Assembly (NCBI GenBank): GCA_039720395.1
Contig: CM077820.1
Location: 16,143,161-16,207,160 of the forward strand
Source of the DNA: Liquidambar formosana
Taxonomy: Eukaryota; Streptophyta; Magnoliopsida; Saxifragales; Altingiaceae
Reading direction: 5' to 3'
DNA length: 64,000 nt
Shown: positions 5,301 to 62,032 of the stretch, one piece after another
Layout of the letters: each line of letters starts with the position of its first letter
Numbering within the stretch: the first letter of the stretch is position 1
The notes under the pieces: model-generated
Database searches by the model: none
What the model was told of the DNA's origin: nothing
Seen by the model: the letters and a program-made list of their open reading frames with translations, nothing else
Translations under genes and position numbers: made by a program

Positions 5301-6740
5301 CAATATCATTGGTGCTTCTTGTACATGAAATGATGAATTATAATCTGCTCAAGCCATTGAAATTGCACATATGATAGCCACTGATGAACTTGATACTGGT
5401 AAAGGGGCTAATCAAATTGAAACTTTGCAAAGAGCTGGAGATAACCATTGGGGTTCTCATTTTCAAACCATCACTAAGGAAGGAAGAAATTATACTCAAC
5501 GTAGGGATGCTGATTCTGCTCTTGATTCACTTACTTCCTTCAATTTTGTATTTATTTTACTTTTGATGAAGGAAATAATGGGAATTATTGATGATCTTTG
5601 TCAAGCTTTGCAAACAAAAAGTCAAGATATCTTAAATGCTATGCAATTAGTTTCTTCTACAAAAGCACTCATTCAAGACATGCGAGAAGATGGTTAAGAT
5701 GATTTTCTTGAGAATGTGAAGTCATTTTGTGGACGGTATGGCATTGATATACCTGATATGAGTGCTCGTTATATAGTGGGTGGAAATAGGTCTTGTCATC
5801 AAGTGGATCACATTACAATTGACCATTATTACCGGATTAATATTTTTACAACTGCAATAAACTCTTAGTTACAAGAGTTCAATACTAGATTTAGTGAGAA
5901 AGCAGTGGAATTCCTTACGCTTAGCTTAGCTTTAAATCCTAAGGATGCTTATAAATCATTTAAAATTCATGACATTTGCACCATTGTAAAGAAGTTTTAT
6001 CCTGAGGATTTCACAGATCTAGAGAAGGATCGTTTGAGATTTCAGTTGAAACATTATGAGCATGATGTACCTCACCATCCAATTTTGAAGAATATGTCTA
6101 CTATTACTGAACTATGCCGAGGCTTAGTGAAACAGAAAAGTCAAAGGTCTATGATTTAATTTATAGACTAATTTGTCTTGTGTTGACTCTTCCAGTTTCT
6201 ACGGCAACCACAAAACGGGCTTTTCAGCTATGAAAATTGTTAAGATACAACTTCGAAATAAGATGGAGGATGAGTTTCTTGCAGATTATTTAGTTGTTTA
6301 TATTGAAGGGGAGATAGCAGAGAATTTCAGTTCAAATTCAATTATTGATGAGTTTTATTTTCTAAAAGATCGTTGGGCACAACTTTGATAGAAGAAACTT
6401 GACTTTTGTTTCTTATTTTCTTTTTGTAAATATATATGTTATATTGTCATACTTGACTAGATATATGACGAAGATGCATGGTCTTTTTTTCATTTTTGAT
6501 TTTGTAACATCTTCGCTAAAGTTGGTTCAAATATTTTTCTTTTTAATGTACTTAGTGGATTATGATTTATGAATTATGAAGTCCTTTTGCCTTACGAATA
6601 AGCTCATTTTAAAATTCTTTTTAATAGTATTTATATAATAAGAATTTGTGGTAAAGGAAAAGAATATTATTACTAGTTTATTATAATTTCTTAAGTTAGC
6701 CTTTGGCCCCAACAACCTCTAGTTCCTCGTTCCACCCCTG
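2349..6740 (+). mobile_element. Complete hAT transposon (4.4 kb), inactive
   Basis: Termini are CAGGGGCGGAAC (2349-2360) and GTTCCACCCCTG (6729-6740), inverted with 11 of 12 bases matching. Both ends also carry a GGCC/GGCCCC-rich subterminal stretch. The 8-bp flanks (GGTGCAAT) are identical, as expected for the hAT superfamily. The interior carries one transposase frame on the plus strand, broken by stops and frameshifts, so the element cannot move by itself. Confidence 0.95.
3982..6388 (+). pseudogene. hAT transposase pseudogene (TTF zinc finger / DUF4371 / hAT dimerisation)
   Basis: The order of homology is complete. N-terminal leader (IKPTKTIDTYFKRK), then a TTF/zf-MYM1-like zinc finger (LSKDAAFCLPCFLFGKKP, about 4357-4420). 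The DUF4371 core follows (FCILVDEAQDKSK near 4914; GQGYDSASNMRGEWNGLQAL near 5116; YYVHCLAYRLQLA near 5200), and last the hAT C-terminal dimerisation region (FSAMKIVK to FLADYLVVYIEGEIAE, 6223-6320). Frame 1 is interrupted near 4465, 4681, 4840, 5326, 5338, 5695, 5866 and 6157; the reading then shifts twice, near 6130 and 6220, each consistent with one lost base. The usual second His of the HCxAHRLQL motif is Tyr here. Zinc-finger MYM-type protein 1-like genes in plants are this family. No intact product is possible. Confidence 0.93.
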
Positions 6741-6748: not shown

Positions 6749-7263
6749 TGCTTTGCGCAATTATTGCAATCATGTTTTTTCCATTTCTCTTGCGTCGAAA
6801 CTCTCCGGATTTTGTAGGAAGTAAATGACAGCTTGTTTGATGGTGAACTGATTTCATTTGTAAGTGTAGAGGCATTTCGGTCTTCCCACCTTTAGTAAGA
6901 CTTGAGGCTTTACAACTTTTTTGAGTGATACCTCACCCGTAAAAGTTTGCTAAAATAGATTTGGGGCCGAAGTCTCCAATAAAAAATTGGTTCGTTGAAA
7001 GATAATAATAATATATAATAATTCATAAAATTTAGATAAAACTTAAATAACCGACTAAGGGACACCCATTAGTCGAATACTCGAATGTGCGATCTCGCCC
7101 CCACAGCACAGTGCTGTGTTCAGCATCACCTCTGAGCACGTTTCCTCCACATCCGTGTATTTTACGGAGTATTAACATTATAAGTACATGGTTCTGGTCC
7201 CAAAACATGCCCCACCGAATCCTTACTCCTCACGCAGCCATCCAACAAGATTCAGCCAATTCA
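6749..7263. other. Upstream region of F-box gene 1
   Basis: No gene seen. 6749-7080 continues the sequence interrupted by the hAT insertion. The last 100 bases match the 5' flanks of the other F-box copies (the motif CCCCA-CCAAAACATGCC and the run into TCAATGTCTCTCCAA). An in-frame ATG at 7087 lies in sequence that is not conserved in the paralogues and is not preferred as start. Confidence 0.5.
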
Positions 7264-8493
7264 ATGTCTCTCCAAGCATCGTCTTTCGACGTAATCGCCG
7301 CCAACGACGACCTCTTAACGGAAATCCTTCTTCGTCTGCCCATTCAATCACTCTTCCAATTCAAATCCGTTTCCAAACATTGGCTTTCTCTCATCTCCGA
7401 TCCCCACTTCTCTCGTCGCCGCCGAAACCTTAAACCCAACGCCGTCGCCGGCCTTTTCCTGAGCCCAGTTAGGACGGACTACTACGTCGAACGCACATTC
7501 GAATTCGTTCCTCTTGGGGACGACGAGTTTGGTCCCTCACGCTTTAGATCTCTCCCTTTTCTCGACGATAACTCGGTTATTCCGAATTCTATTCCCATTT
7601 TGCACTCTTGCAATGGCTTGTTGCTTATTTGTGCCTCTGGAGAGGGTAAGAATGAATATTATGTGTTTAATCCTACCACTATGCAATTCTCTCATCTTCC
7701 CGATCTGCTTCCCATCGACTGTGAGAGGGCTATTGCCATATATTTCAATTTAGCTTTTGATCCGTCTAAATCTCCTCAATACAAAGTTGTCTGTGTTAGT
7801 ACTCGTGATTCACCGTTCAGTCGTTACCGGATCGACATCTATTCGTCCGAGACGGATTCTTGGCGGGTCTCTGCTAATCTTTCCATTGAACGAGCTGTTA
7901 TTGAATTAAATGTTAATATATTCAATGATGGGGTTTTTTGGAACGGTTCCATTCATTATATAGGCGCTAATGAGAGGGCTTACTTGCGTTTCGACGTGGA
8001 ACAAGAGCGGCTTCAAGAAATGCAGATGCCCCCAATTCCTGATGGGCTGAAGGATGAATGGAGGGCCACGTATTTGGGGGAGTCTCGAGACCATTTGCAT
8101 CTTGTTGAGGTTTACGGTTGTACCAGGACGCAGTTTGATGTCTATGAGATGGAGAGGGACTACTCGAGGTGGTTTGTGAAGTATCGTGTCGACCTTGATA
8201 CAGTCACGACTCTATTTCCTGAGATGATTGTGAGCAATTCTCAGTTCCCGGATTTGCGTTGCTATGAATTTCATGTGCTCTGTCTTCTTCGGGGAGAGAC
8301 AGAGGAAGAGTCGTACATGGTGCTGCACATTCATGATAAGCTCATCCGTTACAATCTCAAGGATAAGACTTGCAAGAAACTTTATGATTTAGCTCCCATT
8401 AATGTTGATAAACGCTGCCTCTGGTATTTTGAAACCTTAACTTTCGGATGGTTTATGGCTTATCAATATATTGAAAGTCTTTCTTGTGTTTGA
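7264..8493 (+). CDS. F-box protein, At5g07610-like (copy 1, intact)
   Basis: Single-exon gene, 409 aa from the ATG that begins MSLQASS. This start matches those of copies 2 and 3 and places the F-box about 12 residues in; the frame stays open upstream to 7087. Residues 12-55 form the F-box (NDDLLTEILLRLPIQSLFQFKSVSKHWLSLI), which in this family binds SKP1 and recruits an SCF ubiquitin ligase. The rest is the F-box-associated (FBA) beta-propeller-like region, with CNGLLLI, FNPTTMQFSHLP, AFDPSKSPQYKVV and SSETDSW motifs, which normally contacts the substrate. The substrate is unknown. Three related copies and three 3' scraps lie in the window, so this is a locally expanding family. Confidence 0.9.
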   Translation: MSLQASSFDVIAANDDLLTEILLRLPIQSLFQFKSVSKHWLSLISDPHFSRRRRNLKPNAVAGLFLSPVRTDYYVERTFEFVPLGDDEFGPSRFRSLPFLDDNSVIPNSIPILHSCNGLLLICASGEGKNEYYVFNPTTMQFSHLPDLLPIDCERAIAIYFNLAFDPSKSPQYKVVCVSTRDSPFSRYRIDIYSSETDSWRVSANLSIERAVIELNVNIFNDGVFWNGSIHYIGANERAYLRFDVEQERLQEMQMPPIPDGLKDEWRATYLGESRDHLHLVEVYGCTRTQFDVYEMERDYSRWFVKYRVDLDTVTTLFPEMIVSNSQFPDLRCYEFHVLCLLRGETEEESYMVLHIHDKLIRYNLKDKTCKKLYDLAPINVDKRCLWYFETLTFGWFMAYQYIESLSCV

Positions 8494-12793: not shown

Positions 12794-13505
12794 TAGGGGT
12801 GTTCATTGTTTAGGTTAAAACCGAAAACCAAACCGAACCAAACCAAACCGACCGGTTTGGTTTGGTTTTTTTGTCCTTAGGTTTGGTTTTGGTTCTAATT
12901 TTAGAAAACCGAATTAAATTGGTTTGGTTTTGGTTTTCATGTTTAAAAAACCAAACCAAACCGAAAAAACCGAAAAAATATAATATAAATATATATAATT
13001 TTATATATTATATATTAAACTTAGTTTGTAAATTTTCTATTCTAATAAGGGCATAATAGGTAATAGATTGTAAATTTTCTTAATGGTTTTTCTTTATTAG
13101 ATTAACATGTATTAAATTAGCTATCATTGTTGTGTGAGATATTAGCACGTATTAGATTGAAGATTTGAACTTGGATTGACGTAAGTCAATACTTTTCCAT
13201 TTTGATACAATGTTTAATTTTTTTTTTTTTAGTTGCCATTGTAATGATTTTATTAAAAATGTTTTTATTTAGAGTTTGGCTTGTCATTTTTCTATTTTTA
13301 ATTATTTATTGCTATTAGGTAGGATAAAACCAAAATCAAACCAAATCGAACCAAATCGAAATTTTATAGTTTGGTTTGGTTTGGTTTGGTTTGGTTTTTT
13401 TTATAGTATGATTTGGTTTTGGTTTGAGAAAACAAAAACCGAAGTATAATGATTTGGTTTAAAATCTACCCTAAAACCGAACCAAACCGAACCACGAACA
13501 CCCTA
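12794..13505. mobile_element. Non-autonomous hAT element upstream of F-box copy 2
   Basis: Inverted ends TAGGGGTGTTCA and (read inward from the right) TAGGGTGTTCG. The exact 8-bp target duplication CTAGCTCC is at 12786-12793 and 13506-13513. Inside both ends are runs of AACCAAACCGAACC and its complement. The right end is only 53 bases from the ATG at 13559. Copy 3 keeps an unoccupied equivalent (GTGCTAGCTACAGCCCAATT near 20370). Confidence 0.92.
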
Positions 13506-13558
13506 CTAGCTCCAACCCAATTTCCATCAAGAGAAGCCGAACATTTTCAGCCGATTCA

Positions 13559-14782
13559 ATGTCTCTCCAAACATCAACTTCCGACTTGATCGCCGCCAAC
13601 GACGACCTCTTATCGGAAATCCTTCTTCGTCTGCCCATCAAATCCATCCTCCAATTCAAATCCGTATCCAAGCATTGGCTCTCTCTCATCTCTGATCCCC
13701 ACTTCTCTCGTCGCCGCCTGAACCTTAACCCTAACCCCGTCGCCGGCCTTTTCTTGAGCCCATGGGGGACGGACTACTACGTCGAACGCACATTCGAATT
13801 CGTTCCTCTTGGGGACGACGAGTTTAGTCCCTCACGCTTTAGATCTCTCCCTTTTCTCGACGATAAGTCGGCTATTCCGATTTCCCAGTCTTGCAATGGC
13901 TTATTGCTAATTTGTGGCTATCGAGAGGGTAAGCATGAATTATATGTGTTTAATCCTACCACTATGCAATTCTCTCATCTTCCCGATCTGCTTCCCGAAT
14001 TCGATGACTGTGACAGGGCTCGTGTCATGGGTTTCAATTTAGCTTTTGATCCGTCGAAATCTCCTCATTACAAAGTTGTCTCTGTTCGAACTCGTGATTC
14101 ATCGTTCAGTCGTTACCGGATCGACATCTATTCGTCCGAGACGGGTTCTTGGCGGGCCTCTGCCAATCCTTCCATTGAACAAGTTATTCTTAGAATCAAT
14201 CATATTAGATTCAGCGATGGGGTTTTTTGGAATGGTTCCATTCATTGGATAGGCCCTTTTGTGAGGACTTACTTGCATTTCGACGTGGAACAAGAGCGGC
14301 TTCAAGAAATGCCGATGCCCCCAATTCGTGATGGGTTGAAGGAAAAATGGAGGGTCACGTATTCGGGGGAGTCTCGAGACCATTTGCATCTTGTTGAGGT
14401 TTACGGTTGTACGATGACGCAGTTTGATGTTTATGAGATGGAGAGGGACTACTCGAGGTGGTTTGTGAAGTATCGTGTCGACCTTCATACAGTCACGATT
14501 CTATTTCCTGAGATGATTGTGAGCTTTGCTGAGTTCCCGGATTTGCGTGGCTATGAATTTCATGTGCTCTGTGTTGTTCGGGGAGAAACAGAGGAAGAGT
14601 CGTATATGGTGCTGCACATTCAAGATAAGCTCATACGTTACAATCTCAAGGACAAGACTTGCAAGAAACTTTATGATTTGGCTCCTATTCATGTTGATAG
14701 AAACAGCCTTTTGTATACGGAAACTTTAAATTTCGGATGGTTTCAGGCTTATCAATATATTGAGAGTCTTTCCTGTGTTTGA
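13559..14782 (+). CDS. F-box protein, At5g07610-like (copy 2, intact)
   Basis: Single exon, 407 aa, starting MSLQTSTSD. The F-box is at residues 12-55 (NDDLLSEILLRLPIKSILQFKSVSKHW). The FBA region follows, with CNGLLLICGY, FNPTTMQFSHLPDLLPEF, FDPSKSPHYKVVSV and SSETGSW, ending IQDKLIRYNLKDKTCKKLYD to YQYIESLSCV. It is closer to copy 3 than to copy 1 (the GYREGKHE insertion and LLPEFDD are shared by 2 and 3 only). Predicted role: substrate adaptor of an SCF ubiquitin ligase; target unknown. Its immediate 5' flank is a transposon, so its expression may differ from that of copy 1. Confidence 0.92.
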   Translation: MSLQTSTSDLIAANDDLLSEILLRLPIKSILQFKSVSKHWLSLISDPHFSRRRLNLNPNPVAGLFLSPWGTDYYVERTFEFVPLGDDEFSPSRFRSLPFLDDKSAIPISQSCNGLLLICGYREGKHELYVFNPTTMQFSHLPDLLPEFDDCDRARVMGFNLAFDPSKSPHYKVVSVRTRDSSFSRYRIDIYSSETGSWRASANPSIEQVILRINHIRFSDGVFWNGSIHWIGPFVRTYLHFDVEQERLQEMPMPPIRDGLKEKWRVTYSGESRDHLHLVEVYGCTMTQFDVYEMERDYSRWFVKYRVDLHTVTILFPEMIVSFAEFPDLRGYEFHVLCVVRGETEEESYMVLHIQDKLIRYNLKDKTCKKLYDLAPIHVDRNSLLYTETLNFGWFQAYQYIESLSCV

Positions 14783-18815: not shown

Positions 18816-20423
18816 TGACTTTATCCCAATTATTAATGCTTAATTGATATAAAGTAGATAGTTACTTTATTTGTTTCCCTATCCAGATATTAGTTGGAGG
18901 CAAAATATAGACTCTAGAATCTAGATACCCTTTTCATATGAAAAATAAAAAATCAGAAAATTATAAGTTTACATTTGCAATATATTGTAAGACAATACTT
19001 GCCTACACATTCCATTCATTTTTTGACACTTGTCATAAATAATTGATAAAAATGAATTTAAAAATATGAATAAGTGAATGCACAGTCACCTATACGCATG
19101 TGAGTTCATATAAATCCATACAATTAGTTTTTTCTCAATTATTTATTGGTCATTTGGTGACAAGTCTTGTTTTCAAGACTTGTATAGGTGCAAGTCTCCT
19201 TTCGAAAACTAGTTAAGACTCAAGTCCTCTTTATGATAACAGGACAAAAATGCCCCTATCACTATTAACACTTTCCATGTAAAATTTAGAGAAATAAATT
19301 CTCCATAATACCTGGAGAGTATTTTGCTCCAAAATCTTCGAAAATCATGTTCCTCGTATCCGAAGATTCTGTAATTGAAAATTACATATACTTTATGTAA
19401 TTGTTTTAAATTTCAGATTTTGGTGTTTGTTTTTGGAAAATTATAGTAAGTTGTTTTAATTTTTTTTTTTTTTTTTTTTTTTTGGGTTTAACTGTTTCAA
19501 ATAACTTTGAAATTCAAAAAAGTTCACAAAACTTACATGTACTTTGTGTAACTGTTTTAAATTTTTTTTTTAAAATCTAAAATGTATTTTATTGTTTAAG
19601 CAGAAATTCTTTTTTGGGGTATTGAAAACAGTTACACTTGGGTTTGGAAAATTGTAATAAATTGTTTTTATTTGTTTTTGATTTATTTTTTTATTTTTTT
19701 TTGTGTGTAACTGTTTTAAATAACTTAAAGTTTCAAAAATGTGCATAAAAGTTATATCTACTTTGTATAACGATAGCTACATGTAAATTGGAAATTACTG
19801 GTAAAAATAAAGTATTCTCGACTTTTCGTGCGTTAAAAATGAAAGAAAATAAAAACAAATCGCCATAGTTGTACCATATTTGAATATAGTATTAAATCTG
19901 CAAAAATCAAGTAATTGCGTTCTTTAAAAATAGAAAAAAATAAAGGGAAATGACCATAATTATATTGTGTCTGAATATAGTATCAAATCTGCAAATATCA
20001 AGTAATCTTATGTGTTAAAAATGGAAGAAAATAAAAAATTCAAATTTCGTATGCAAATATGATATCAAATTTGTTATGACGGTTAAATAGTCATTAATTA
20101 AAAAACGAAAGTGATATTTCATTTAATTCACCACCGTTTTCTTAATTTATGAACTTGAGACAACACAAGTTTTCCTTGAGTACTAATCCCTTCGGAAGTC
20201 TTCCAAAATGTATTCTTTACTAATTTCCTCATTATTTAGATAAGTGGTAGTACACGAGAGAAGATTGGGAGGGTTTTTCTTCCGTGCACGTGTGGGGCAA
20301 GTATTTCCTAACATTATAATTACTCCACATGATTTTGGCCCCAAGGACCAAAACATGCCTTCTTGCAGTGCTAGCTACAGCCCAATTTCCATCGAGGCAA
20401 GGCGAACATTTTCAGCCAATTCA
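18816..20423. other. Upstream region of F-box copy 3
   Basis: 18816-19100 continues the F-box upstream block. About 19130-20000 is a repeat relative of 10660-11530, rich in poly-T and GTAACTGTTTT motifs. 20280-20423 is the conserved proximal 5' flank (CACGTGTGGGGCAAGTATTTC, GATTTTGGCCCCAAGG). No separate gene. Confidence 0.5.
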
Positions 20424-21651
20424 ATGTCTCTCCAAACATCATCTTCCGACGTGATCGCCGCCAACGATGACCTCTTATCGGAAATCCTTCATCGTCTGCC
20501 CATCAAATCCATCCTCCAATTCAAATCCGTATCCAAACATTGGCTCTCTCTCATCTCCGATCCCCACTTCTCTCGTCGCCGCCTGAACCTTAACCCTAAC
20601 CCCGTCGGCGGCCTTTTCTTGAGCCCATGGGGGACGGACTACTACGTCGAACGCACATTCGAATTCGTTCCTCTTGGGGACGACGAGTTTGGTCCCTCAC
20701 GCTTTAGATCTCTCCCTTTTCTCGACGATAAGTCGGCTATTACGATTTCGCAGTCTTGCAATGGTTTATTGCTAATTTGTGGCTATCGAGAGGGTAAGCA
20801 TGAATTATATGTGTAATGTGTTTAATCCTACCACTATGCAATTCTCTCATCTTCCCGATCTGCTTCCCGAATTCGATGACTGTGAAAGGGCTAGTGTCAT
20901 GGGTTTCAATTTAGCTTTTGATCCGTCGAAATCTCCTCATTACAAAGTTGTCTGTGTTCGACCTCGTGATTCATCGTTCAGTCATTACCGGATCGACATC
21001 TATTCATCCGAGACGGGTTCTTGGCGGGTCTCTGCCAATCCTTCCATTGAACGAGTTATTCTTAGATTCAATCATATTAGATTCAGTGATGGGGTTTTTT
21101 GGAATGGTTCCATTCATTGGATAGGCCTTTTTAGGACTTACTTTCGTTTCGACGTCGAGCAAGAGCGGCTTCAAGAAATGCCGATGCCCCCAATTCCTGA
21201 TGGGTTGAAGGATGAATGGAGGGTCACGTATTTGGGGGAGTCTCGAGACCTTTTGCATCTTGTTGAGGTTTACGGTTGTACCATGACGCAGTTTGATGTC
21301 TATGAGATGGAGAGGGACTACTCGGGGTGGTTTGTGAAGTATCGTGTCGACCTTGATACAGTCACGACTCTATTTCCTGAGATGATTGTGAGCAATCATG
21401 AGTTCCCGGATTTACGGTGCCATGAATTTCACGTGCTCTGTGTTGTTCGGGGAGAAACAGAGGAAGAGTCGTATATGGTGCTGCACATTCATGATAAGCT
21501 CATACGTTACAATCTCAAGGAGAAGACTTGCAAGAAACTTTATGATTTGGCTCCTATTCATGTTGATAAACGCTGCCTTATGTATACGGAAACTTTAAAT
21601 TTCGGATGGTTTGAGGCTTATCAATATATTGAAAGTCTTTCTTGTGTTTGA
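20424..21651 (+). pseudogene. F-box protein copy 3, broken by a 7-bp insertion
   Basis: Starts MSLQTSSSD at the same point as copies 1 and 2, and runs through the F-box (NDDLLSEILHRLPIKSILQF) to YREGKHELYV, then stops at 20814. At the break the sequence is TATGTGTAATGTGTTTAAT where copy 2 has TATGTGTTTAAT: seven extra bases that look like a local duplication of TGTGTAA/TAATGTG. The rest of the protein (VFNPTTMQFSHLP to the usual YIESLSCV end, to 21651) is open in another frame with no further stop. A truncated F-box-only protein of about 130 aa is possible; it would keep SKP1 binding but lose the substrate region. Confidence 0.88.
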
Positions 21652-25260: not shown

Positions 25261-31547
<6,287 letters not shown>

Positions 31548-33064
31548 GAACCTCTAACTTCCTTTCACTTTGCGAACGTGGGAAGGGTTTTATCAGTCAG
31601 ATACCGATGAGATAAGAAGAGGGAATGAGGGGCACACTTGCGAGGCTTTGCCGGGTCAACATTGGGCTCTAGAGTCAAGTCAATCAAGCAAAGTGCTTTG
31701 ATTTTTTTTTACCTCCACAGGGATCGAGAGGAAAGTTCAGAGAACCTTCAATGGAGGTGTGGAAAATCACGGGGGGGAGTAATGATACTGATGGGGGACA
31801 GAAGTGAAAGAGTGACGCCAGTAGTAAAATCAGGGTCGTCACTTTGTATGCGTGTATATCCGGAGGGCCTATTAATTTCCACATCATTTTTCACTGTATT
31901 CACTCATCTTCCTCGCTTATTTTCGCATTTTTGGTGTGGAGCAGTGGAAGCAATCAAGGAAAAAAAAAAGTTTGAAAATAAGCCCTCCCTGAGTCCCTGG
32001 CTTGTTTTTCTTTTGCAATAATAGCTGGAGGAGCAATCTTTGTCATGCCTGATCTCTTAACACGTTCAAATAATGATGATATGAGACATTTTCAATAAGG
32101 CCGGATGATTTAATTTTTGGGGGAGAACCTATTTTTCTACTATTTTTTTCTTTATTTTTGGATTGTATCATACAATGTGTGAAAATAAGCCATAAAGAGG
32201 TGTCGAAATAAATCAAAAAACTAAGCACATGTATAATTGAACATTTCAAAAAGTTTTTAATAGATAAAAACCTGATCAATCCAGGTTTGAATTCGATAAC
32301 ATATGAATGCCCTGTCCCAAATTATTCTTAACTACATTATTCCTTCATCATTATTCTTTCTCGTGCTCTACGTCATCTTGGGATTCATTTTTTTGAAACG
32401 ACTCTTCTCCCTTGCATGTATACCCCACCTCTAATTTTCAATAGGCTTTAATTTAGATGGACATCGTGTCAAAAAAATTGTTAGATGTACAACTGAAATT
32501 AAATAGCCTGAGTCAAAACTCTGTGAATTGGTGGTAACCCACAGATTAAAGAGTTGGTGGCAACCCACAGATTAAAGAGTTGATCTAATCATCCAATCCA
32601 TAACATACCTTAATGGATTAAGTAGGAAGATAGAAGATTCCAATAGAAAACCAATTATTAGATTTTGATTTTATAAGATGAAGATAAAACCAAAATATTT
32701 TTACTATTGGAAGTGATGTTGCTGTTTAGTGTAGTAAGGATATATTGGCTTGCTAGTGTTACAATTATTTTTTTATTTTTGGATCAGCAACAATTAAAAG
32801 TTCAAAAGTATTTTAAAGTATGAAAAATATGGATTACGTCAAATTCATTAACTATACATTGACTTTTTAAAAAATGAATTCTTCTTCTTCTTCTTCTTCT
32901 TTTTATTTTTTATTTATTTTTTATTATTATTTTTTTTTGAACTTTGTAGTTTGTATAGCAGAAGAGAGATTTTTTTTTTAAGTTATGTATGTTTGTGCAT
33001 CTATTATACGGGTATCTATGTTATTATATAAAGAGCAGTACACAGATGTGGCATAGCTTTGAGG
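31548..33064. other. Upstream region of the CRK gene
   Basis: No gene. Features seen: a tandem two-copy 29-base repeat (GGTGGCAACCCACAGATTAA type) at about 32525-32583, a (TTC)n tract at 32878-32900, and T-rich DNA. The CRK promoter must lie in the first part, since transcription runs leftward from just above 31547. Confidence 0.5.
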
Positions 33065-33796: not shown

Positions 33797-34020
33797 CTTT
33801 TAGGTCTACTTTTTCTCATTTTATATTTTCATTAACCGTGACCTTTTTTCTAAATTAACATGACACATTAAAATTAATTTGAAATTGAACTTCAAATCAA
33901 ATTAAAATCAAGATTTCTCAAGTTTAAATTCCCATAGATCATCCACCATTCATTTTCCACCGCAACTCAAATTTTTATAATGACCTAATGTTTCATGTTT
34001 GTGATATATATATATATGTA

Positions 34021-35340
34021 TACAGTGCCGTTCAGGTGGGCTGAAGCTGATATACTGGTATATCAGCGTGAGTCATCGTGGCCATCCGTTCAAAGTGTAT
34101 GCAAATCAACGGCTGGGGTGCTTTGGAGACAAAACTGCAGCTGCTGTCACATCCGTCAGCGTCCTCTCTCGTCCTCTCTCTTCTCTCTCATCACGTCTCC
34201 CTCCTTCCAATTCAGACGGGCTCCTGTTTGAAGTTTGAAAGCTTACTCTCTCTCCCTCTCTCTCTCTCTCTCTCTCATCGCAGCAGCACCCCTTTCATCG
34301 CCGGAGCCCTTCATCGCCGGCAGCCTTACCTCACACACACGACCTCTCCTTCTTTCTCTCTTGGCCACCTCACCTCACACACACGACCTCTCCTTCTTTC
34401 TCTCTTGGCCACCTCACCTCACACGACCCTCACCGCCGGAGCAGGACACGCAGCAGCCTGCCTCATCGCCGGAGCCTGCCTCAACTCACACGACGTCTCC
34501 CTCTCTCTCTCGTGGCTGGCTTACGAACCTCAGCTCACCGGAGCTGACCCTCACCGCCGGCACCCCTCATCTCACCAAACGCAGCAGCACCCCTTCATCG
34601 CCGGAGCCTGCCTCACCTCACCGCCGGCCATGGCTGCTCCTCACTGTTAGCAGCAGCACGCGACCCTCACTGCTGCCACGCGTGAAGCTGCCGTCACCGC
34701 TGCCGTGAAGCTGCTCGCCGCCGCTGCTCTCCACGAACCTCGCCGCCGCTGCTCCGGTGAGTCCTCCATGTTCGATTTCTGCCAAGATAATGTTTCTGCC
34801 AAGAAAAATAATGTTTTTCCAAGAAATTTATGTTTCTGCCAAGAAATTTTATGAGCAAATTAAGGGTATACATGAGCAACTTGAATGACAAAAAAAAAAT
34901 AAATTGCTTTACATTCCATTCATTTCTTAGATTCTAAACTACATTACTATGTAGTAAGTTAGTAACTTAATGCAACTTCACCGCTGAAAAGATTCCTTAA
35001 AGAAAAGAATGACCCATGTTATGGAATTTTATAAAAGTCAGGAGGGAAGTTGAAAGAGAAGTATTTTTTTGAAACTATTTGCCAACCAACATCAGTAGTC
35101 CTGTTTTTTTTTTTGAATTATAACAATAAATTCGAAACAGAGGATCACTAAATTTCGAAACAGAGGATCACTAAATCACTAAAAAAACAGAAAATTATAA
35201 GAAAATTCTCTAAATTATAAGAAAATGAATTATAACAAAATTCCAAACCTTATTTTTTCCTATTGAATTATTAGAAAATTGATTCATGATTAATTACATA
35301 TTTGATTAAGATGTATGTGGCTTTTGTACCCTAAATATGT
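34021..35340 (+). repeat. Left long terminal inverted repeat of the MULE
   Basis: 1320 bases. By eye it differs from the right repeat at only a few places: C/T at the TKRSS/TKCSS codon (about 34580 versus 41655) and a one-base T-run difference near 34815. It contains a (CT)n tract, a GC-rich stretch (34270-34770) with repeated TCATCGCCGGAGCC and TCACCGCCGG units, and a splice-donor-like GTGAGT at 34757. Confidence 0.95.
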
Positions 35341-35737
35341 GTCATGTGACTAACTATACAACAATGTGGACATTGGCATAATGTAGATATTGGCATAATT
35401 TTTCTTCATAATATCTATTTAATTTGTTATATTACATGGAGAATTAGGATCATCATGTAGTCATGATTTTGATCACCATAACTCATTGTAACTTAATTTA
35501 CTAGCTAGTGGCAACAGTTTAAAAAAAATTCCCTATTCTCCAATGACACCCACATCACACAGCTTCTCTGTATTTAGTTTAACTATTGTTTTAGCAATTA
35601 ATTTGATGGCTTGTTGCTTTCAATCTATTATGTCTTCATTTGTTCTCCTTAATTAATTTTTCCAGTTTCAGTGGATTCATCTATGAAATATGTTTTTTTT
35701 TTAATAAAAAAAATAGTATGTTTCCTTCTTAATACAG
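34757..35737 (+). other. Predicted 5' UTR intron of the transposase gene
   Basis: Donor CCG|GTGAGT inside the left TIR; acceptor TTTCCTTCTTAATACAG ending at 35737, four bases before the transposase ATG. Inferred from motif quality and position only. Confidence 0.4.
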
Positions 35738-35741
35738 ATCA

Positions 35742-38009
35742 ATGGAGGACTTTGATGTTGAATTAGATGAGTCAGAAACACAACACCATGGCTCCTCCTC
35801 AATCAATTCAGAAGTGTGTTATATTCCTAATGTAATGCAAGGACACAAACCTTTCATAGGACAAGAGTTTGACTCTTTGGACATGACTTATGCATTCTAC
35901 AACAACTATGCGAGGCAAGCTGGGTTTAGTGTTCGAATTGGGAGTAGTAATAGGAATCGTGAGAATGAAATAAGCAGGAAAGTGTATACTTGTTCAAAAG
36001 AAGGTGAGAAAATAGTCCGAGCACCAAAGCCTGATAGTAAACAACCAAAGAGGCGTCGAGGGATAACACGAGAAAGTTGCAATGCAAAACTCGCCGTTCT
36101 CAAGTCGGGTGATAAATTTAAAGTGTCTATATTTGAGGAGGTGCACAACCACACTTTTTCATCCCCCGGCAAAGTTCAGCTTTTGCCATCTCATCGGCAT
36201 GTCTCATCGGCCCAACGGGCACTAGCACAAACCTTCAACAATGCAAATATCCCTCCATCCCAACTGATGAGTGTTTTAGAGCTGCAGGCGGGTGGTTTAC
36301 AAAACATTGGCTGCACTGAACAGGATATGAGAAATGCTAGAAGAGATGCAAGAAAAGCGACTGATGGCCATGATGCAGACATGCTGAATGAGCATTTCCT
36401 TACTCAAAAAGAGAGAAATCCGAATTTCACATACACCATTGAGACAGATGATGAGAATCGGATTTCACATATATTTTGGGCGGATGCATCAAGTAGAGAG
36501 GCATACAAACATTTTGGGGATGTTGTAGTGTTTGACACTACCTATCAAACAAATAAGTATGATATGATTTTTGCACCAATATTGGGGGTTAACCATCATG
36601 GGCAAACAATAACGTTTGGTTGTGGGTTCTTGTGTGATGAGAACCATGAATCTTTTATTTGGTTGTTTGAGGAGTGGATGAAAGTTATGCCAGGTGAGCC
36701 ACCCAAGATGATCATTACTGATCAAGATCCAGCCATGGAGATTGCCATTAGACATGTATTTCCAACAACATGTCATAGGTATTGCATTTGGCACATCTTG
36801 AACAAGTTCTCTGAGAAAGTTGGTGCTCGCATATGTAGCCAATACTATGAAAGTTTTCGTGATTGTATTTGGGATTCAGAGGACCCAGAAGAGTTTGAGT
36901 GTAGATGGGCTGCTCTCATTGAAAGAAGTGAGTTACATGAGAATGGGTGGTTACAGACAATGTTTAACAAGCGGGATAGGTGGGTTCCTGCTTTTGTTAA
37001 ACATGTTTTCTCAGCTAAAATGTCATCTAGTCAAAGAGCAGAGAGTAACCATTCATTTGCAAAGAAGTATGTGGACAGGCGTAATTCTTTGTGGGATTTT
37101 ATTACAAGGTTCAATAGGGCGCTTTCCAAGCAAAGGTACGGCGAGTTACAAGCCGACCATGTTGATCATAATGAGAGACCCATGTTGAAGACTCCAGTTG
37201 CATTGGAGGGACAAATGGCTAATATTTATACACGTTCTATCTTTGAAAAATTTCAAGATGAGTTGTGGGAATCTATGAAATATGGGAGTACTGTTAAGGT
37301 GGATGATGAGTTCCACACCATCTATGAGGTTGAAAGGCGGGTGTTTGATGGTGGCAAAGGCAAAGGCAAAGGTAAAAGCACCCAAAGGCAAAATGAGGAT
37401 GGTGAAAAAACAATATCAGACAGGGTCCGATTGATTGTGGATGATAAGGTTACTGATTTTGCAAGTTGCAGTTGTAAGAATTTTGAGTGGGAGGGAATTC
37501 CTTGCAGACACTTGTTGCACTATTTTTTTTGTAGAAAACAATACAATGAGTTGCCAGGTAAATATATCTTGAAGAGGTGGACAAAGGGTGCAAAGTGTAT
37601 GAGTTTAATGGAGGGCAGTGCAGTGAACATGGAGGATGCAGGTGATAGGGGCGTGTTAGTTCGCCGTAATGATTTATGTGGAGTTTTTGCAAGGGTAGTT
37701 GATGGAGCCGTTTTAAGTGTAGAGGGAACTGACATGTTGAGAGAAGATTTGTTAGCTAGTGAAATGAGGATCAAAGCACTCTCTATTGGAGAGGGTAGCA
37801 ACAATTTGGGAGTTCCAAGCAATTATCCTCCAATCAATTCTACTCCTGTATTGTTAGAACCTAATCAAGTTAGGGCTAAGGGATGTGGGAGAAGAATAAA
37901 AGGAGGAAAAGAAAAGGCTAGGGAACAAAATTTGAGAAAATGTAATGGATGTGGTCAATGGGGACAGTCCCATGACAAGAGGAATTGCCCAGCTTTAATG
38001 AACATGTAA
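35742..38009 (+). CDS. FAR1-type MULE transposase, 755 aa, open
   Basis: Residues 49-139 are a FAR1 DNA-binding (WRKY-GCM1-like) zinc finger (FYNNYARQAGFSVRIGSS, CNAKLAVL, HNH). Around 260-345 lies the MULE transposase core, with the first Asp in VVVFDTTY (D265) and the second in IITDQDPA (D327), then TTCHRYCIWHIL. SSSQRAESNHSFAKKYV follows at 428-444. A SWIM finger C-x-C-x9-C-x-H is at 576-590 and a zinc knuckle C-x2-C-x6-H-x4-C at 734-749. No stop or frameshift. An alternative end is likely: a donor (AT|GTAAGT) at 38006 could join 38246-38322 and 38541-38557 by GT-AG introns, replacing the last residue by about 31 others ending FTDS. FAR1/FHY3 host regulators descend from such transposases, but the flanking TIRs make this a transposon gene. 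Confidence 0.93.
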   Translation: MEDFDVELDESETQHHGSSSINSEVCYIPNVMQGHKPFIGQEFDSLDMTYAFYNNYARQAGFSVRIGSSNRNRENEISRKVYTCSKEGEKIVRAPKPDSKQPKRRRGITRESCNAKLAVLKSGDKFKVSIFEEVHNHTFSSPGKVQLLPSHRHVSSAQRALAQTFNNANIPPSQLMSVLELQAGGLQNIGCTEQDMRNARRDARKATDGHDADMLNEHFLTQKERNPNFTYTIETDDENRISHIFWADASSREAYKHFGDVVVFDTTYQTNKYDMIFAPILGVNHHGQTITFGCGFLCDENHESFIWLFEEWMKVMPGEPPKMIITDQDPAMEIAIRHVFPTTCHRYCIWHILNKFSEKVGARICSQYYESFRDCIWDSEDPEEFECRWAALIERSELHENGWLQTMFNKRDRWVPAFVKHVFSAKMSSSQRAESNHSFAKKYVDRRNSLWDFITRFNRALSKQRYGELQADHVDHNERPMLKTPVALEGQMANIYTRSIFEKFQDELWESMKYGSTVKVDDEFHTIYEVERRVFDGGKGKGKGKSTQRQNEDGEKTISDRVRLIVDDKVTDFASCSCKNFEWEGIPCRHLLHYFFCRKQYNELPGKYILKRWTKGAKCMSLMEGSAVNMEDAGDRGVLVRRNDLCGVFARVVDGAVLSVEGTDMLREDLLASEMRIKALSIGEGSNNLGVPSNYPPINSTPVLLEPNQVRAKGCGRRIKGGKEKAREQNLRKCNGCGQWGQSHDKRNCPALMNM

Positions 38010-38540
38010 GTTTACTTATTTAATTTATACAAAAACTTCGACAATGTAATATAGATATATAGTTGTTTGTGCCATAGTACATTATTGATGGAATTGCTAA
38101 GATTTATTCACTTCTATTATCACATTATGTTGTTCGAAAATTAAATTGGATTGAGTTGATCATTATACACATTTAAAACACTTATTGTCTATAATTTATT
38201 TTTATAACTTCATGCTAATAGTTGAGTATTTGATTTTATTTTTAGACCCGCTCCTAGCACTAATGTTAGAACTTCACGCAATCGTGATCCTGTATCCAAT
38301 GATGAAGTGTTTTCTTCTATGGGTAAGTAAATAAGATTTAATAGGATTTATATTTACTACATAGTTAGTTGATATATGTTACAGTTCATGATAAAATTTA
38401 ATTGTAAGTACTATTAAGTTGGTTAATTTATTTATTTAGTTTTCTTGTATTTTTTTATTTTTTATTTTTTGTTGTCATTGTTTGGTTTTGTTGTTAACAT
38501 TATTATTATTGTTTTATTTATTTCTTTTTTTTTTTTGTAG

Positions 38541-38959
38541 GGTTCACAGATAGTTGATGAGCCAGTGGAGCAAAAAACTGTTTTGGCGCACATAAGGTCC
38601 AATTTCATTTCTACTTTTATTCATGGCTTGTAACATATTCTATTCCCGGTTCTTAAATGATGAGTGGCTGGTTTTCAGATTAGAGTATCTCAGTTCTATT
38701 TATTTTGAAGCCTTCTAATTAGATGATGGCAATGTGAAGTAGTTTGGATCATCATATACAGTTTTGTGTACTTTTTGGTAGGTTAAGGACAATCTGTTAA
38801 GCTTTGATTTTTGCAAGCATTGTTGCTTCAATACAACTGGAAATTAGCTCAATGCATTTATGAGATTATAGAATGTTTGCATCATTAGAGAGTTTCTTAT
38901 CTCATAAATGAGGGAAGCAAGGCGATGATCATTGGAGTCTATTTTTTTGTTTAATGTTT

Positions 38960-38995
<36 letters not shown>

Positions 38996-39115
38996 AGTCT
39001 ACTTTGCATATCCTGATATTTTCTGGTGGCGTAATCTGCAGAAAAGTGGAAGAGCACAAGTTGGAGATGGTCAACAGGGAGAACGACCTCCGGAATGTAA
39101 GCAGCAGTAATATTT
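38541..39115 (+). pseudogene. Two exon-like pieces, possible captured host fragment
   Basis: After a 3' splice-site-like TTTTTTGTAG, the frame GSQIVDEPVEQKTVLAHI runs to a donor-like AG|GT (38600). A second piece after CTGCAG (39042) continues in phase as KVEEHKLEMVNRENDLRN and stops at 39115. The ~440-base intron-like gap holds a (CT)n tract (38961-38992). The charged, helical sequence looks like a coiled-coil end, but I cannot name the source gene. It could also be the ancestral C-terminus of the transposase, since it lies just downstream on the same strand. Confidence 0.4.
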
Positions 39116-40159
39116 GATCACCAGAATGGGATTTGTGGACTGAATGGGGTTTTGACTTTGATGTTGATTGGAGTGGTTCGGGATGAAAAAGAAAGGTTTG
39201 GGGTGGGGGGGGGGGGGGTTTGCTGGTTTTGAGGTGTTCTTTTTCTTATCATTATATTAAAATTTTAAATTTTTAGATCCTTTTTTTCCCTGGTTTGGAG
39301 GAAATGTGGTCAGAATTAGTTAAGAGGTGCCATGTGATTTATTGATGCATTTCCTGATGTGGACGTTTTTTGAAACTGTTACACCTATGATATTTGTTAG
39401 TGCATGTAGGCTGGTGTTCTGTTTTTGCTTTCATGGTTTCTCCGGTGGGTGTGGATCTTAATCATTTGGTCTGTCTTTAGATGATTATGGCCATTTTGGT
39501 CAATTTTGTGTTTAAAAGCAGGAAAAACGCTTTCAAAATTGCACAAAATAATGCAAATAACCTCTGAATAGAAAGCTGTTACATCTACCATATGTGTCAA
39601 AGGGCTCCGCTAATCTTTTGTGAAATCCCTTCGAGTACCCATTGACTCAAAGAGTGAGTCATATAAGGAAGGTAGCCAGGAATCGGTATTCGCGGCAATC
39701 AGATCTGGCTTGTCATATGGACATTTCTTGCAGACTCCATAGTTTGATGAAGAGCATGATGAGGTTGCTTGGTACAGGTGGTTTTTGATTAGAACCAGCA
39801 ATTGTTGGAAGGAGCTGAAGAATTCCCTACCTAACCCCACCAAATCACAATAACGTATTAACTACCTCGTGTGAACATATTTAGCTTTGGGTATTAAGAA
39901 GCCCAGTTAATTATGTTTGTGTAAGATCGTATAGTGCTCCATATTTAATTTCTAAAATATATATATAAAATGAGTTGGTTACTTGGCATAATAATATATA
40001 ATAATAGATCCCACTACCACTGAAGAAAAATATAATTGGCATAATACAAAGACTGAAGTCTCACATAATAATATATAATAATAGATCCCAAATGCCAATG
40101 TGCCAAGCCAGTCCTAAGTCAAGGTGCCTAAAAGTCTTATACACAGTGAAATTAAGAAA
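39116..40159. other. Region between the convergent MULE genes
   Basis: G-run near 39200, T-rich DNA, and direct repeats of ATAATATATAATAATAGATCCCA near 39990 and 40064. A minus-strand 77-codon frame (39843-39610) has no recognisable similarity. Transcription terminators of both genes must lie here. Confidence 0.5.
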
Positions 40160-40659
40160 CTAATTTCTAAAAATCCACATTAATATTACAATGATTAGTA
40201 GCAAAATTATCAAACGCTTCAACATTAATATTTCTTCGCGTATTGCTTGAATCTGGTTATCGTTTCCAATCTGGTTCTTGTTTCCTTGCGACAATGGTTG
40301 GCTACCAATGTTTTCATATCTTCCCCGCCTACCACTCCAACCTTGTCCGTCACGTCGTCGCCTTTGCAATTCATCCTCCCATACACGAACCCACTGCACA
40401 AATCCATTGCATTCCCCAACCTAATCATAGAAACAATAATGAGTAACAATAATTAATTTCGCATTACAATAATAATGGTTGATAATACTATGATTAACAA
40501 TAATTAGTTTCTCACATTGCATGTCGATGCATAGTAATGTTTACCGAAGTTGTCAATCTTACTATACGCAATCTTGATTTCACATGGCATTCGACGACTG
40601 CAATCACAAAATCTTCGCAAATCTAAACCTGTACTGCATGAGCTTCCTTCGGATGCCAT
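40160..40659 (-). CDS. GRF-type zinc-finger protein with C-terminal membrane tail, 134 aa (MULE gene B)
   Basis: Exon 1 is 40659-40516 (48 codons from ATG, with an in-frame stop directly upstream). Exon 2 is 40420-40160. The intron starts GTGAG and ends TTAG. The product begins MASEGSSCS; residues 18-61 fit a GRF zinc finger (CDCSRRMPCEIKIAYS, then FGKHYYASTC, then CNGFVQW). A basic QRRRRD stretch, a short heptad-like helix (IQAIREEILMLKRL) and a hydrophobic tail (LIILLLIIVILMWIF) end the protein. Small plant proteins of this layout (At4g04775-like) have unknown function. It is read towards the transposase, and its ATG is about 230 bases inside the right TIR. Role in transposition is an inference from position. 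Confidence 0.8.
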
Positions 40660-40668
40660 TCATACACC

Positions 40669-41477
40669 CTATAACCAAAATTCCCTAACAAATTTCCAAC
40701 CATTAATGGAACTAAATATATATATTTTATTGAATGTGAGCATAAATTTATGTTTAAAAATAAGGGAAAAAAAAATTACATAAGGCAGATGATTGGGATT
40801 TCAATAAAATATAAACAGGAGCTAAACTGCACCTACACATATTGTGAGTAGTGGCATCCGAGATACAAATGTTTAACTAGTTCCTCGTACAAACATATTT
40901 AGGGTACAAAAGCCACATACATCTTAATCAAATATGTAATTAATCATGAATCAATTTTCTAATAATTCAATAGGAAAAAATAAGGTTTGGAATTTTGTTA
41001 TAATTCATTTTCTTATAATTTAGAGAATTTTCTTATAATTTTCTGTTTTTTTAGTGATTTAGTGATCCTCTGTTTCGAAATTTAGTGATCCTCTGTTTCG
41101 AATTTATTGTTATAATTCAAAAAAAAAAACAGGACTACTGATGTTGGTTGGCAAATAGTTTCAAAAAAATACTTCTCTTTCAACTTCCCTCCTGACTTTT
41201 ATAAAATTCCATAACATGGGTCATTCTTTTCTTTAAGGAATCTTTTCAGCGGTGAAGTTGCATTAAGTTACTAACTTACTACATAGTAATGTAGTTTAGA
41301 ATCTAAGAAATGAATGGAATGTAAAGCAATTTATTTTTTTTTTGTCATTCAAGTTGCTCATGTATACCCTTAATTTGCTCATAAAATTTCTTGGCAGAAA
41401 CATAAATTTCTTGGAAAAAACATTATTTTTCTTGGCAGAAACATTATCTTGGCAGAAATCGAACATGGAGGACTCAC
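40669..41477 (-). other. Predicted 5' UTR intron of the GRF zinc-finger gene
   Basis: The mirror donor GTGAGT in the right TIR (41477-41472) and an acceptor TTGGTTATAG ending at 40669, nine bases before the ATG. Same arrangement as for the transposase. Motif-based inference. Confidence 0.35.
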
Positions 41478-42213
41478 CGGAGCAGCGGCGGCGAGGTTCG
41501 TGGAGAGCAGCGGCGGCGAGCAGCTTCACGGCAGCGGTGACGGCAGCTTCACGCGTGGCAGCAGTGAGGGTCGCGTGCTGCTGCTAACAGTGAGGAGCAG
41601 CCATGGCCGGCGGTGAGGTGAGGCAGGCTCCGGCGATGAAGGGGTGCTGCTGCATTTGGTGAGATGAGGGGTGCCGGCGGTGAGGGTCAGCTCCGGTGAG
41701 CTGAGGTTCGTAAGCCAGCCACGAGAGAGAGAGGGAGACGTCGTGTGAGTTGAGGCAGGCTCCGGCGATGAGGCAGGCTGCTGCGTGTCCTGCTCCGGCG
41801 GTGAGGGTCGTGTGAGGTGAGGTGGCCAAGAGAGAAAGAAGGAGAGGTCGTGTGTGTGAGGTGAGGTGGCCAAGAGAGAAAGAAGGAGAGGTCGTGTGTG
41901 TGAGGTAAGGCTGCCGGCGATGAAGGGCTCCGGCGATGAAAGGGGTGCTGCTGCGATGAGAGAGAGAGAGAGAGAGAGGGAGAGAGAGTAAGCTTTCAAA
42001 CTTCAAACAGGAGCCCGTCTGAATTGGAAGGAGGGAGACGTGATGAGAGAGAAGAGAGAGGACGAGAGAGGACGCTGACGGATGTGACAGCAGCTGCAGT
42101 TTTGTCTCCAAAGCACCCCAGCCGTTGATTTGCATACACTTTGAACGGATGGCCACGATGACTCACGCTGATATACCAGTATATCAGCTTCAGCCCACCT
42201 GAACGGCACTGTA
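40893..42213 (-). repeat. Right long terminal inverted repeat of the MULE
   Basis: Inverse of 34021-35340 to within a few bases. The match ends abruptly at the inner edge (ACATATTT at 40893-40900). Confidence 0.95.
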
Positions 42214-42475
42214 TATATATATATATATATAGATATTTTTTTTTTCAGAATATTAATTATATTTTTTAAGAGAAAAAGAAAAAATAAACTTATTGTGCAT
42301 AACACAACCATTACTCATAGCACGAATATTTACTAACAAAGCAAGCAGCATTTGATTTTACAAAACACAAATACACATTTTCTGTCTATCTTGGGTAAGC
42401 TTTGTATAATTGTTGCTAGGGTGAAAAAAAAAAAAAAAAAAATGAAGAAGAAAGAAAGAAAGAAAGAAAGAAGAG

Positions 42476-43915: not shown

Positions 43916-44533
43916 AAAAAAACCTAGGTTTTCTAAGTTAAAATTGAAAATTTTTTTTTGTAAAATAATTTAATTAGGGTCGAATTTGCTGGTTCTTCAC
44001 ACTTTCTTTCTTTCTTTCTTTCATATATATATATATATATATATATATTTCCCCTTTCTAGCTTGAATAAATTACTTGATTTTTATTTAACAGATTTATA
44101 GATTTTCATTTGCGAAAACCCTAGGAAAGAGAATCGATCATGCCGTTGCGAAAACCCTAGGAGAGAGGCACATCCTCGTCAATCGGGTTTTGTTTTTGCA
44201 TTCTGGTCAATCGGGTTTTTAGCAACATTTTTAGTAGCTTTGCAGTTCCCTTTTTGTTAAAAGGTGTTTAGTATATATGTCATTTGGTTGATGTTTTTGT
44301 AGGGAAATAGTGGGCTTATGTAGCAGCCCTCTTTTATAAAACCTTAAAAAAATGTAGATTTAGTGAGTAACTTAGAGGACTTTGCGATGTCAATAGCGTA
44401 GCCCAAAAAATTATAAAAAGAGAAAGGAAAAGATAGGGCTTACCTCATAGGCTTATACAGTAAAACACAAATTCACCTTTTTTGGCTCCGAAACAAGGCC
44501 GTAGAGGCTCGAGACAGAGCATACCCTTCAAAC

Positions 44534-45748
44534 ATGAAGACGGTGCTATCTATCAAGAGAAGACGAACAGCTTCAGTCAATTCAATATCTCACCAAGCAT
44601 CATCTGCCGACGCAATCGCCGGCAACTACGACCTCTTAGCGGAGATCCTTCGTCGCCTGCCAGTTAAATCACTCGTCAAATTCAAATCCGTATCCATACA
44701 CTGGTTCTCTTTCATCTCCAATCCCCACTTCTCTTGCCGCCGATACCGTAACCCTAACCCTAACTCCGTCTCCGGCCTTGTCTTGCACCCATCTTCGTAT
44801 TTCCTCCACCATGATTTCGCTTTTGTTCCGCTCGACGAGAATACGAATCTGGTAACGCACCCTTTCCGTCTCTGTTTTTTTGGTTACGATCCGTCGCATA
44901 CTGCAGTTTTACAATCTTGCAATGGCTTACTGTGTTGTTCCACAATTCGACTTAGTCGGCCTCTTCTTCACCATTATCATGTCTTTAATCCTACTACTGA
45001 GCAATACAATACCCTTCCACTACTCCATGGAGTTGATTTCAGGACTGTTTTTGGTGTTGGCTTAGCCTTTGATCCCTCGAAATCTCCTCACTACAAACTT
45101 GTTTATGTTTGAACTTTCGATTGGTCATTCGATCGTCGTCAGATTGATGTCTATTCATCCGAGACGGGTTCTTGGAGCGTCTCTGCCGCTGATCATGTTG
45201 GTACTATTATTTTTTATATGAGATTCAATGGTGGGGTTTTTTGGAATGGCGCAATTCATTGGATGGGCACTCGTGGGGATTCGATGCCGAAACAGAGCGA
45301 GTTCGAGAAATGCCTCCGCTCCCAATTCCTGATGGGTTGAATGAGAGATGAAGGGTTGGGTACTTTGGGGAGTCTCGAGACCACTTGCATCTTGTTGAGA
45401 TGTACACTTGTTTCACTGGAGAGTTTAACGTTTATGAGATGGAAGGAGACTACTCTGGACAGTTTAACGTTAATAATCTCCAAGCAATTCGGACTGTATT
45501 TCCTGAGGTCACTTGGAGCTATCCTAACCGACAACACTTGGATTGGGATGAATTTGCTATACTTTGTCTTCTTCGTGGAGAAACTGAGGAAGAGTCATGT
45601 CTGGTGGTGCACATTCCTGGTATGGCCATACGTTAGTCTTAAGGATAAGACTTTTAAGAAATTTTGTGATTATGATCGTACTATGGGTTGTTATATACTC
45701 AGTTCGGATGTTGCTTATCAATATATTGAAAGCCTTTCTCGTGTTTGA
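44534..45748 (+). pseudogene. F-box protein copy 4, decayed
   Basis: Encodes an F-box (YDLLAEILRRLPVKSLVKFKSVS) and the FBA motifs FNPTTEQYNTLP, FDPSKSPHYKLVYV and SSETGSWSVSA, to the end AYQYIESLSRV. The ATG used by the other copies is ATA here (SVNSISHQ); an upstream ATG at 44534 is in frame. A TGA at 45110 interrupts the frame, a shift occurs around 45280-45350, and another after MAIR near 45636. The most diverged copy, so probably the oldest split. Its 3' flank (46000-46200) still resembles those of the other copies. Confidence 0.88.

Positions 45749-59956: not shown

Positions 59957-62032
<2,076 letters not shown>

Follow-up and report, generated by a model that had tools for sequence, protein, structure and literature searches.

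In the maize transposon MuDR, each of two genes is read inward from a terminal inverted repeat (TIR). One gene encodes the transposase, and the other, of ill-defined function, runs in the opposite direction (PMC4486113, PMC9168764). A second gene, often antisense, is also carried by Abermu type II, Mutyl and many other Mutator-like elements (MULEs) (PMC6446971, PMC9168764). The function of the second gene in two-gene plant MULEs is not well settled. Here, we describe a MULE of 8,193 bp from sweetgum, Liquidambar formosana, located at positions 34021–42213 of a 64,000-nucleotide stretch of contig CM077820.1 (hereafter designated the window). It follows the plan of MuDR in that the second gene is convergent with the transposase gene and each gene starts beside a TIR. 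Unlike MuDR, the sweetgum element has a transposase with a FAR1 domain, its second gene encodes a GRF-like protein whose C-terminal helix is hydrophobic, and its TIRs are 1.32 kb long. With a probability of about 0.93, we consider it to be a two-component element consisting of the transposase gene and the GRF-like gene.

The transposase has the FAR1-MULE-SWIM arrangement of the Jittery-like (FAR1) MULEs, such as maize Jittery, CitMule and the grapevine families. CitMule of citrus similarly encodes a transposase of approximately 800 residues in a large first exon that is followed by small exons; it is 6.9 kb long, has one predicted 5-exon transcript, and is described as a non-TIR element in the available text (PMC4334395). 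In some grapevine Jittery-like families, the transposase is followed by sequence coding for ULP (PMC2528002), whereas the second gene of the sweetgum element is GRF-like and not ULP. For the dicot/monocot Jittery group, Table 1 of PMC6446971 gives one open reading frame (ORF) and TIRs of 39–292 bp, and the sweetgum TIRs exceed the range of 14–640 bp found in the available text and table of that paper. The Abermu type II elements of grasses have an opposite-direction ORFR between the transposase and the 3′ TIR, with Ka/Ks below 1 in three barley–wheat comparisons; the available text gives the ORFRs as being of unknown function and as dissimilar both between distant plants and to MURB (PMC9168764). 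Unlike the sweetgum element, Abermu has a MURA-related transposase, and its TIRs are 138–145 bp long in Hvu_Abermu (PMC9168764). MuTAnT of Medicago shares with the sweetgum element a Jittery-like transposase and the targeting of TA microsatellites, but it has a single ORF and different ends (GGGGTTTGC...) (PMC4486113).

A preliminary description, made from the window alone, had suggested that the GRF gene may be an independently acquired helper gene and that the element is of a kind not described before. As regards its general plan, this does not hold, because a second gene in antisense orientation is a common feature of MULEs (PMC6446971, PMC9168764), including MuDR, Abermu and the ULP-carrying elements. 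As regards the GRF-like gene, the literature searched, which did not include subscription papers or Repbase, yielded no description of a MULE whose second gene is of the GRF type. In the available part of PMC8774480, "GRF" is the name of a software.

Structure of the element

The left TIR (34021–35340, forward strand, 1320 bases) and the right TIR (40893–42213, reverse strand, 1321 bases) are 99.85% identical, differing by one substitution and one gap, and represent the long TIRs that are a hallmark of MULEs. The window contains two occurrences of the end sequence TACAGTGCCGTTC, both of which point inward, and none was present in 100 shuffled sequences with up to one mismatch allowed. TA microsatellites form the insertion points on the left (34003–34022) and on the right (42212–42232), and the copies on contigs C4, C151 and C10 (described below) are likewise inserted in TA runs. 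In copy L022, CAGTGCC lies immediately 3′ of (AT)n, which suggests that the terminal TA probably belongs to the target microsatellite and that the true start of the element is probably at CAGTGCC. The previously proposed extent from 34021 needs this small correction at the terminal TA. Because every site seen is a TA microsatellite, the 8–11 bp target site duplication that is standard for MULEs is unreadable.

The main exon of the transposase gene (35742–38005, forward strand) is open from the ATG at 35742 to the splice donor at 38005. The frame stays open through a predicted exon with GT-AG sites (38246–38321, forward strand), and a predicted last exon (38541–38633, forward strand) would bring the total to 810 residues. 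The N-terminal FAR1 domain, the MULE core (PF10551, E = 2.5e-31) and the SWIM domain are all above the Pfam cut-offs and constitute the Jittery-like domain layout. The transposase retains 91 of the positions that 95% or more of 66 relatives have in common and departs at two. The kept positions include Asp265, Asp327 and Glu434 (D265, D327 and E434), which we take to be the DDE catalytic triad from their positions in the motif. The 120 relatives listed include many with the name FAR1-RELATED SEQUENCE. Based on its domain content, we designated the transposon a FAR1-type MULE of the Jittery-like kind; it is probably autonomous. A Pack-MULE, which has gene fragments instead of a transposase, can be ruled out because the transposase and the second gene are both open.

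The GRF-like gene runs leftward and encodes 134 residues in two exons separated by a 95-nt GT-AG intron. Exon 1 (40516–40659, reverse strand, read from 40659 to 40516) contains the start codon and the first part of a zinc-ribbon motif; exon 2 (40160–40420, reverse strand, read from 40420 to 40160) contains the end of the motif, a linker and the C-terminal hydrophobic helix. The inverted ends of 1.32 kb, the open FAR1-type transposase frame rightward from the left TIR and the two-exon leftward gene from the right TIR are all as given in the preliminary description. An exact 27-nt direct repeat (39987–40013 and 40064–40090, 77 bases apart) is located directly downstream of the GRF-like gene. An Rfam scan of the window gave no match.

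Both TIRs have the identical splice donor CG/GTGAGT (the slash indicates the splice point) at offset 734, and an acceptor is located just 5′ of the ATG of each gene. A common untranslated leader exon for both genes is plausible from this arrangement. The predicted leader intron of the transposase gene would extend over 34757–35737 (forward strand) from the TIR donor to the acceptor ATACAG/ATCAATGG, and that of the GRF-like gene over 40669–41477 (reverse strand) from the same TIR donor to the acceptor ATAG/GGTG before the ATG. In four of the five group A copies checked (see below for the groups), the 13-base donor motif is present once in each direction; the exact motif was not found in the fifth, the C4 copy. 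The leader acceptor of the GRF-like gene, ATAG or ACAG, is kept in 14 of the 14 open copies listed.

Copies of the two genes in the assembly

The assembly searched comprises 718 Mb, and we designate its copies with L numbers and its contigs with C numbers. At least 40 copies of the GRF-like gene, including the one in the window, are present and are 84–100% alike; this count is a lower bound (40 of 60 candidates scored). Fifteen of them, again including the window, are open, as they keep the start, the frame and the splice sites without a premature stop, although L051 lacks the usual stop codon. The open copies form group A (>95%, with the TIR of the window; seven copies including the window) and group B (approximately 87%, with a different TIR; eight copies), and the copies intermediate between the groups are all decayed. 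DNA similar to the A or B TIR lies upstream of 29 of the 40 copies (16 A and 13 B, with a weak A match at L036) and upstream of all 15 open copies, whereas the 11 copies without it are all decayed. In a stricter earlier count that considered only the A TIR, 15 of 40 copies had it.

Exact matches to the end sequence number 14 in the assembly, compared with six for a control. Three inward-facing pairs correspond to full copies, namely those in the window (C1), on C4 (8,223 bp) and on C151 (8,188 bp). The three copies span 8.19–8.22 kb, the transposase main exon and the GRF frame are open in each of them, and the paired TIRs within them are 99.0–99.9% alike. The transposase main exons on C4 and C151 are 99.8–100% identical to that of the window. 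The flanks of approximately 700 bases have nothing in common at E = 1e-5, indicating that the copies are three separate insertions and not duplicated contigs mistaken for copies. The remaining eight end matches are single. Six of these have no match of at least 150 bp to the element and therefore look like chance occurrences, whereas those on C8 and C10 do match. In the C10 copy, the transposase main exon and the GRF-like frame are both open. In the C8 copy (L032 and L021), the GRF frame is open, and the transposase has four stops and a 1-base deletion. The C4 copy (L009) differs in sequence from the window in the stretch between the convergent 3′ ends (window 38968–39992), whereas the transposase exon and the GRF-like gene are 99.8% identical; its TIRs are only about 85–91% like those of the window. 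This pattern looks like an exchange of parts of the element.

In a search for MULE domains, in which 150 of 1141 candidates were scored, 19 of the 40 GRF-like copies had a MULE domain no more than 10 kb away, compared with 0.95 for random places. These 19 domains are all convergent with the GRF-like gene and lie 3.6–7.0 kb from it. Probes of 601 bp, placed at the expected distance from 18 copies, matched the transposase in 15 cases, all convergent, and those at L043 and L050 matched DNA bordering it. When both lists are joined, a convergent transposase is present beside 24 of the 40 copies; 15 copies were probed to 1.5 kb only, and transposase 3′ DNA was present within this distance at three of them (L040, L045 and L061). 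The expectation that the GRF gene travels with the transposase in several insertions, which had been raised before the assembly was searched, is thus borne out by the 40 copies, by the convergence in 19 of 19 and 15 of 15 cases, and by the full copies in unrelated flanks. The 40 copies rule out a one-off random capture of the GRF-like gene, and the 19 convergent neighbors, against 0.95 for random places, rule out a chance adjacency.

The 11 loci without an upstream TIR, all of them decayed, would fit a pair of elements that overlap or are nested, or a normal host gene standing by chance beside MULEs. However, the uniform convergence of the 19 neighbors at 3.6–7.0 kb and the single TIR pair that encloses both genes at three unrelated sites contradict such an arrangement and leave it with hardly any probability.

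A group B element on C13 has the same plan, with transposase pieces convergent to an open GRF-like gene. The pieces are 77–83% identical to the window transposase in protein sequence and are broken by one stop and a frameshift. An inverted repeat of 798 bp (96% identity) is located upstream of both genes and ends approximately five bases before the ATG of the GRF-like gene; its left repeat begins at a TA run. The C13 TIR gave no match to the group A TIR. Between the window and C13, the transposase has a dS of 0.337, a dN of 0.099 and a dN/dS of 0.29, and the GRF-like gene has corresponding values of 0.294, 0.094 and 0.32 (Fisher p = 2e-4). The presence of the same two genes in groups with dissimilar TIRs suggests that the transposase and the GRF-like gene remained joined while the ends came to differ. 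Together, the 40 copies, the convergent transposase and the matched divergence indicate that the second gene is old and co-inherited.

Conservation and possible role of the GRF-like protein

The N-terminal part of the second protein has the motif order CxC...N-x-G-K-x-Y...C...C...F-x-x-W, and a clear hydrophobic helix is located near the C-terminus (residues 112–130, mean hydropathy 2.75). Cys8, Cys18, Cys20, Cys26, Cys47, Cys52, the block CSRRMPCEIKIAYSKI and Trp58 are invariant across the 15 open copies. The Pfam match to the GRF family (PF06839; 17.6 bits, E = 0.0042) is under the curated cut-off of 25.9. In an hhalign comparison with 32 plant GRF-type proteins, the protein scored 32.4 in the right register, and none of 400 shuffles reached this value (best, 22.96); in a separate profile comparison, the same pair gave a probability of 23.5 and a score of 26.2. 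A first custom GRF profile placed the protein at rank 3 of 5001 (7.5 bits), and a narrower one failed to recognize it (best domain, −0.9 bits). The earlier label of a GRF zinc-finger/membrane protein thus holds for the hydrophobic helix, whereas its GRF part is less firm than given there: the resemblance exceeded all shuffles, but the Pfam score and our narrower profile speak against family membership. We call the protein GRF-like and not a member of PF06839. A search of the PDB gave a weak match to NEIL3 (E = 2.9), which ranked behind an unrelated one. Codon bias in support of the frame (fraction 0.005 versus background) was discarded, because frame 2 was higher and one of the three training genes contained 36 stops.

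Plant GRF-type proteins like At4g04775 share the motif order CxC, N-x-G-R/K-x-F/Y, C, F-x-x-W, with 20–23% identity to the second protein over the aligned motif. A hydrophobic stretch near the C-terminus is present in 64 of 100 hits. The genome contains at least 71 GRF domains over the Pfam cut-off, and none of these 71 lies within 10 kb of any of the 150 scored MULE domains (0.39 for random places); a general association of GRF genes with MULEs in this genome is unsupported. Several of the domains belong to multi-copy sets of equal score, such as five of 114 amino acids on C2, C13, C16, C21 and C245, which look like other repeat families. The Rhododendron molle locus tags among the relatives listed (six transposases and seven GRF genes) include no neighboring pair. 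The Brassica oleracea protein P0193 combines a GRF-type profile match with PF10532 and bears the source name "MULE transposase N-terminal all-beta domain-containing", which may hint that GRF and MULE sequences are linked in a further lineage, unless two genes were merged in the model. Some small genes of the GRF type that are annotated as belonging to the host may in fact belong to transposons.

For the analysis of selection, the mutation spectrum of the decayed GRF-like copies served as the neutral reference. In the pair of the window and C13, the missense-to-silent ratio of the GRF-like gene is 0.43 of neutral (p = 0.0026). The within-group variants of the open copies are at 0.36 of neutral (33 silent and 41 missense, p = 2.5e-5), and pooling them with the fixed A/B differences gives p = 1.5e-4. 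The mean dN/dS of the gene is 0.41 for 48 A–B pairs of open copies (range, 0.29–0.60), 0.26 within group A and 0.33 within group B. By region, dN and dS are 0.117 and 0.374 in the N-terminus, 0.071 and 0.314 in the zinc-ribbon motif, 0.147 and 0.262 in the linker, and 0.074 and 0.059 in the membrane part.

Several observations weigh against a second gene that is maintained for the benefit of the element. Of the 40 GRF-like copies, 25 are not open, and at the group A copy L030, the probe matched the left TIR at the place expected for the transposase. None of the six candidates from a protein search with the small protein reached E = 1e-3. The fixed A/B differences alone agree with neutral expectation (five silent and 17 missense), private changes of the decayed and the open copies are near neutral (0.87 and 0.88; p = 0.29 and 0.51), and changes common to at least two of all copies are at 0.81 of neutral (p = 0.13). 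The pN/pS ratios of decayed and of open copies against the nearest open copy differ little (0.54 and 0.49), and the constraint was measured on copies selected for being open. Moreover, the near-identity of the TIRs suggests that the element is probably young, but this is not certain because gene conversion could also explain it. Shared changes did not differ from those private to decayed copies (Fisher p = 0.45). Copy L030 (C14:14382232, probe L069), which has an open GRF-like gene and a left TIR at the place expected for the transposase, is possibly a GRF-only derivative.

The selection data are thin (402 bases), and their outcome is mixed. A signal of the purifying selection expected across copies was found in the pair, within-group and pooled tests and not in the fixed, private or shared changes. 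We consider constraint on the GRF-like gene likely, with tests that agree only in part; constraint would be expected if selection acts on the gene only in those lineages that continue to transpose. The neutral appearance of the fixed and private changes would fit a passive passenger, that is, a GRF gene of the host that was taken up in a single event preceding the split of groups A and B and is of no benefit to the element; plant MULEs are known to capture host genes, and at least 71 other GRF domains are present in the genome. However, despite approximately 0.25–0.3 silent changes per site between the groups, eight B and seven A copies (the window included) keep the start, the frame, the splice sites and the six cysteines (with L051 lacking the usual stop). 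Together with the depletion among within-group variants (0.36 of neutral) and a dN/dS close to that of the transposase, this makes a mere passenger quite improbable.

Judged from its retention in many copies, the second protein is probably useful to the element. The main rival to a part in transposition proper is an anti-silencing or other host-manipulating function. VANC of Arabidopsis VANDAL21 protects its element from host silencing. Retention of the second gene in many copies would agree with such a function, as would the C8 copy, in which the GRF-like gene is open and the transposase broken, and an arms race would fit the faster change of the linker (dN of 0.147 versus 0.071 in the motif). 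In addition, long MULE TIRs have been associated with small interfering RNAs (PMC6446971). On the other hand, a Pfam scan of the second protein gives the weak GRF match and nothing else, and in our judgement a membrane helix would be unusual for this role, so that we regard an anti-silencing function as unlikely.

APE2, TOP3A and NEIL3 have GRF zinc ribbons that bind single-stranded DNA, which suggests that the GRF-like protein may bind exposed transposon ends, and its C-terminal anchor suggests a location at a membrane, possibly the nuclear envelope. In a possible mechanism, each TIR would drive one transcript, and both leaders would be spliced from the one shared TIR donor motif. The transposase would cut the ends and join them, and the second gene would provide an accessory factor in the form of a small protein that has a zinc-ribbon-like domain and is tail-anchored. 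This protein would most likely bind DNA or the transposase at the membrane during excision or reinsertion; we consider this membrane-tethered mechanism rather doubtful. More broadly, we tentatively propose, with less confidence than we place in its usefulness, that a lineage of FAR1-type MULEs has the GRF-like protein as its genuine second component, which takes transposition intermediates or the transposase to the membrane and has persisted through complete turnover of the TIRs. If so, the GRF-like membrane protein would be a functional, non-homologous counterpart of mudrB. The sweetgum case adds a compact, recognizable protein design, a zinc-ribbon-like motif with a C-terminal anchor, to the two-gene MULEs. 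The natural copies with one gene broken or missing, and the two groups with shared genes and unshared TIRs, make the role of the second gene testable, namely whether it is needed, at which step, and whether it recognizes the ends or the transposase.

Other features in the window

Related F-box frames are located at 7051–8493, 13475–14782, 20244–21651 and 44417–45112; the third is split between two frames. Two neighboring frames at 3976–5328 look like a broken hAT-like transposase. The second contains a DUF4371 domain (4843–5328), and the first is without a Pfam match. The stretches 30720–31553 and 59957–60418 encode Stress-antifung domains of the type present in cysteine-rich receptor kinases, together with a DUF3403 domain.

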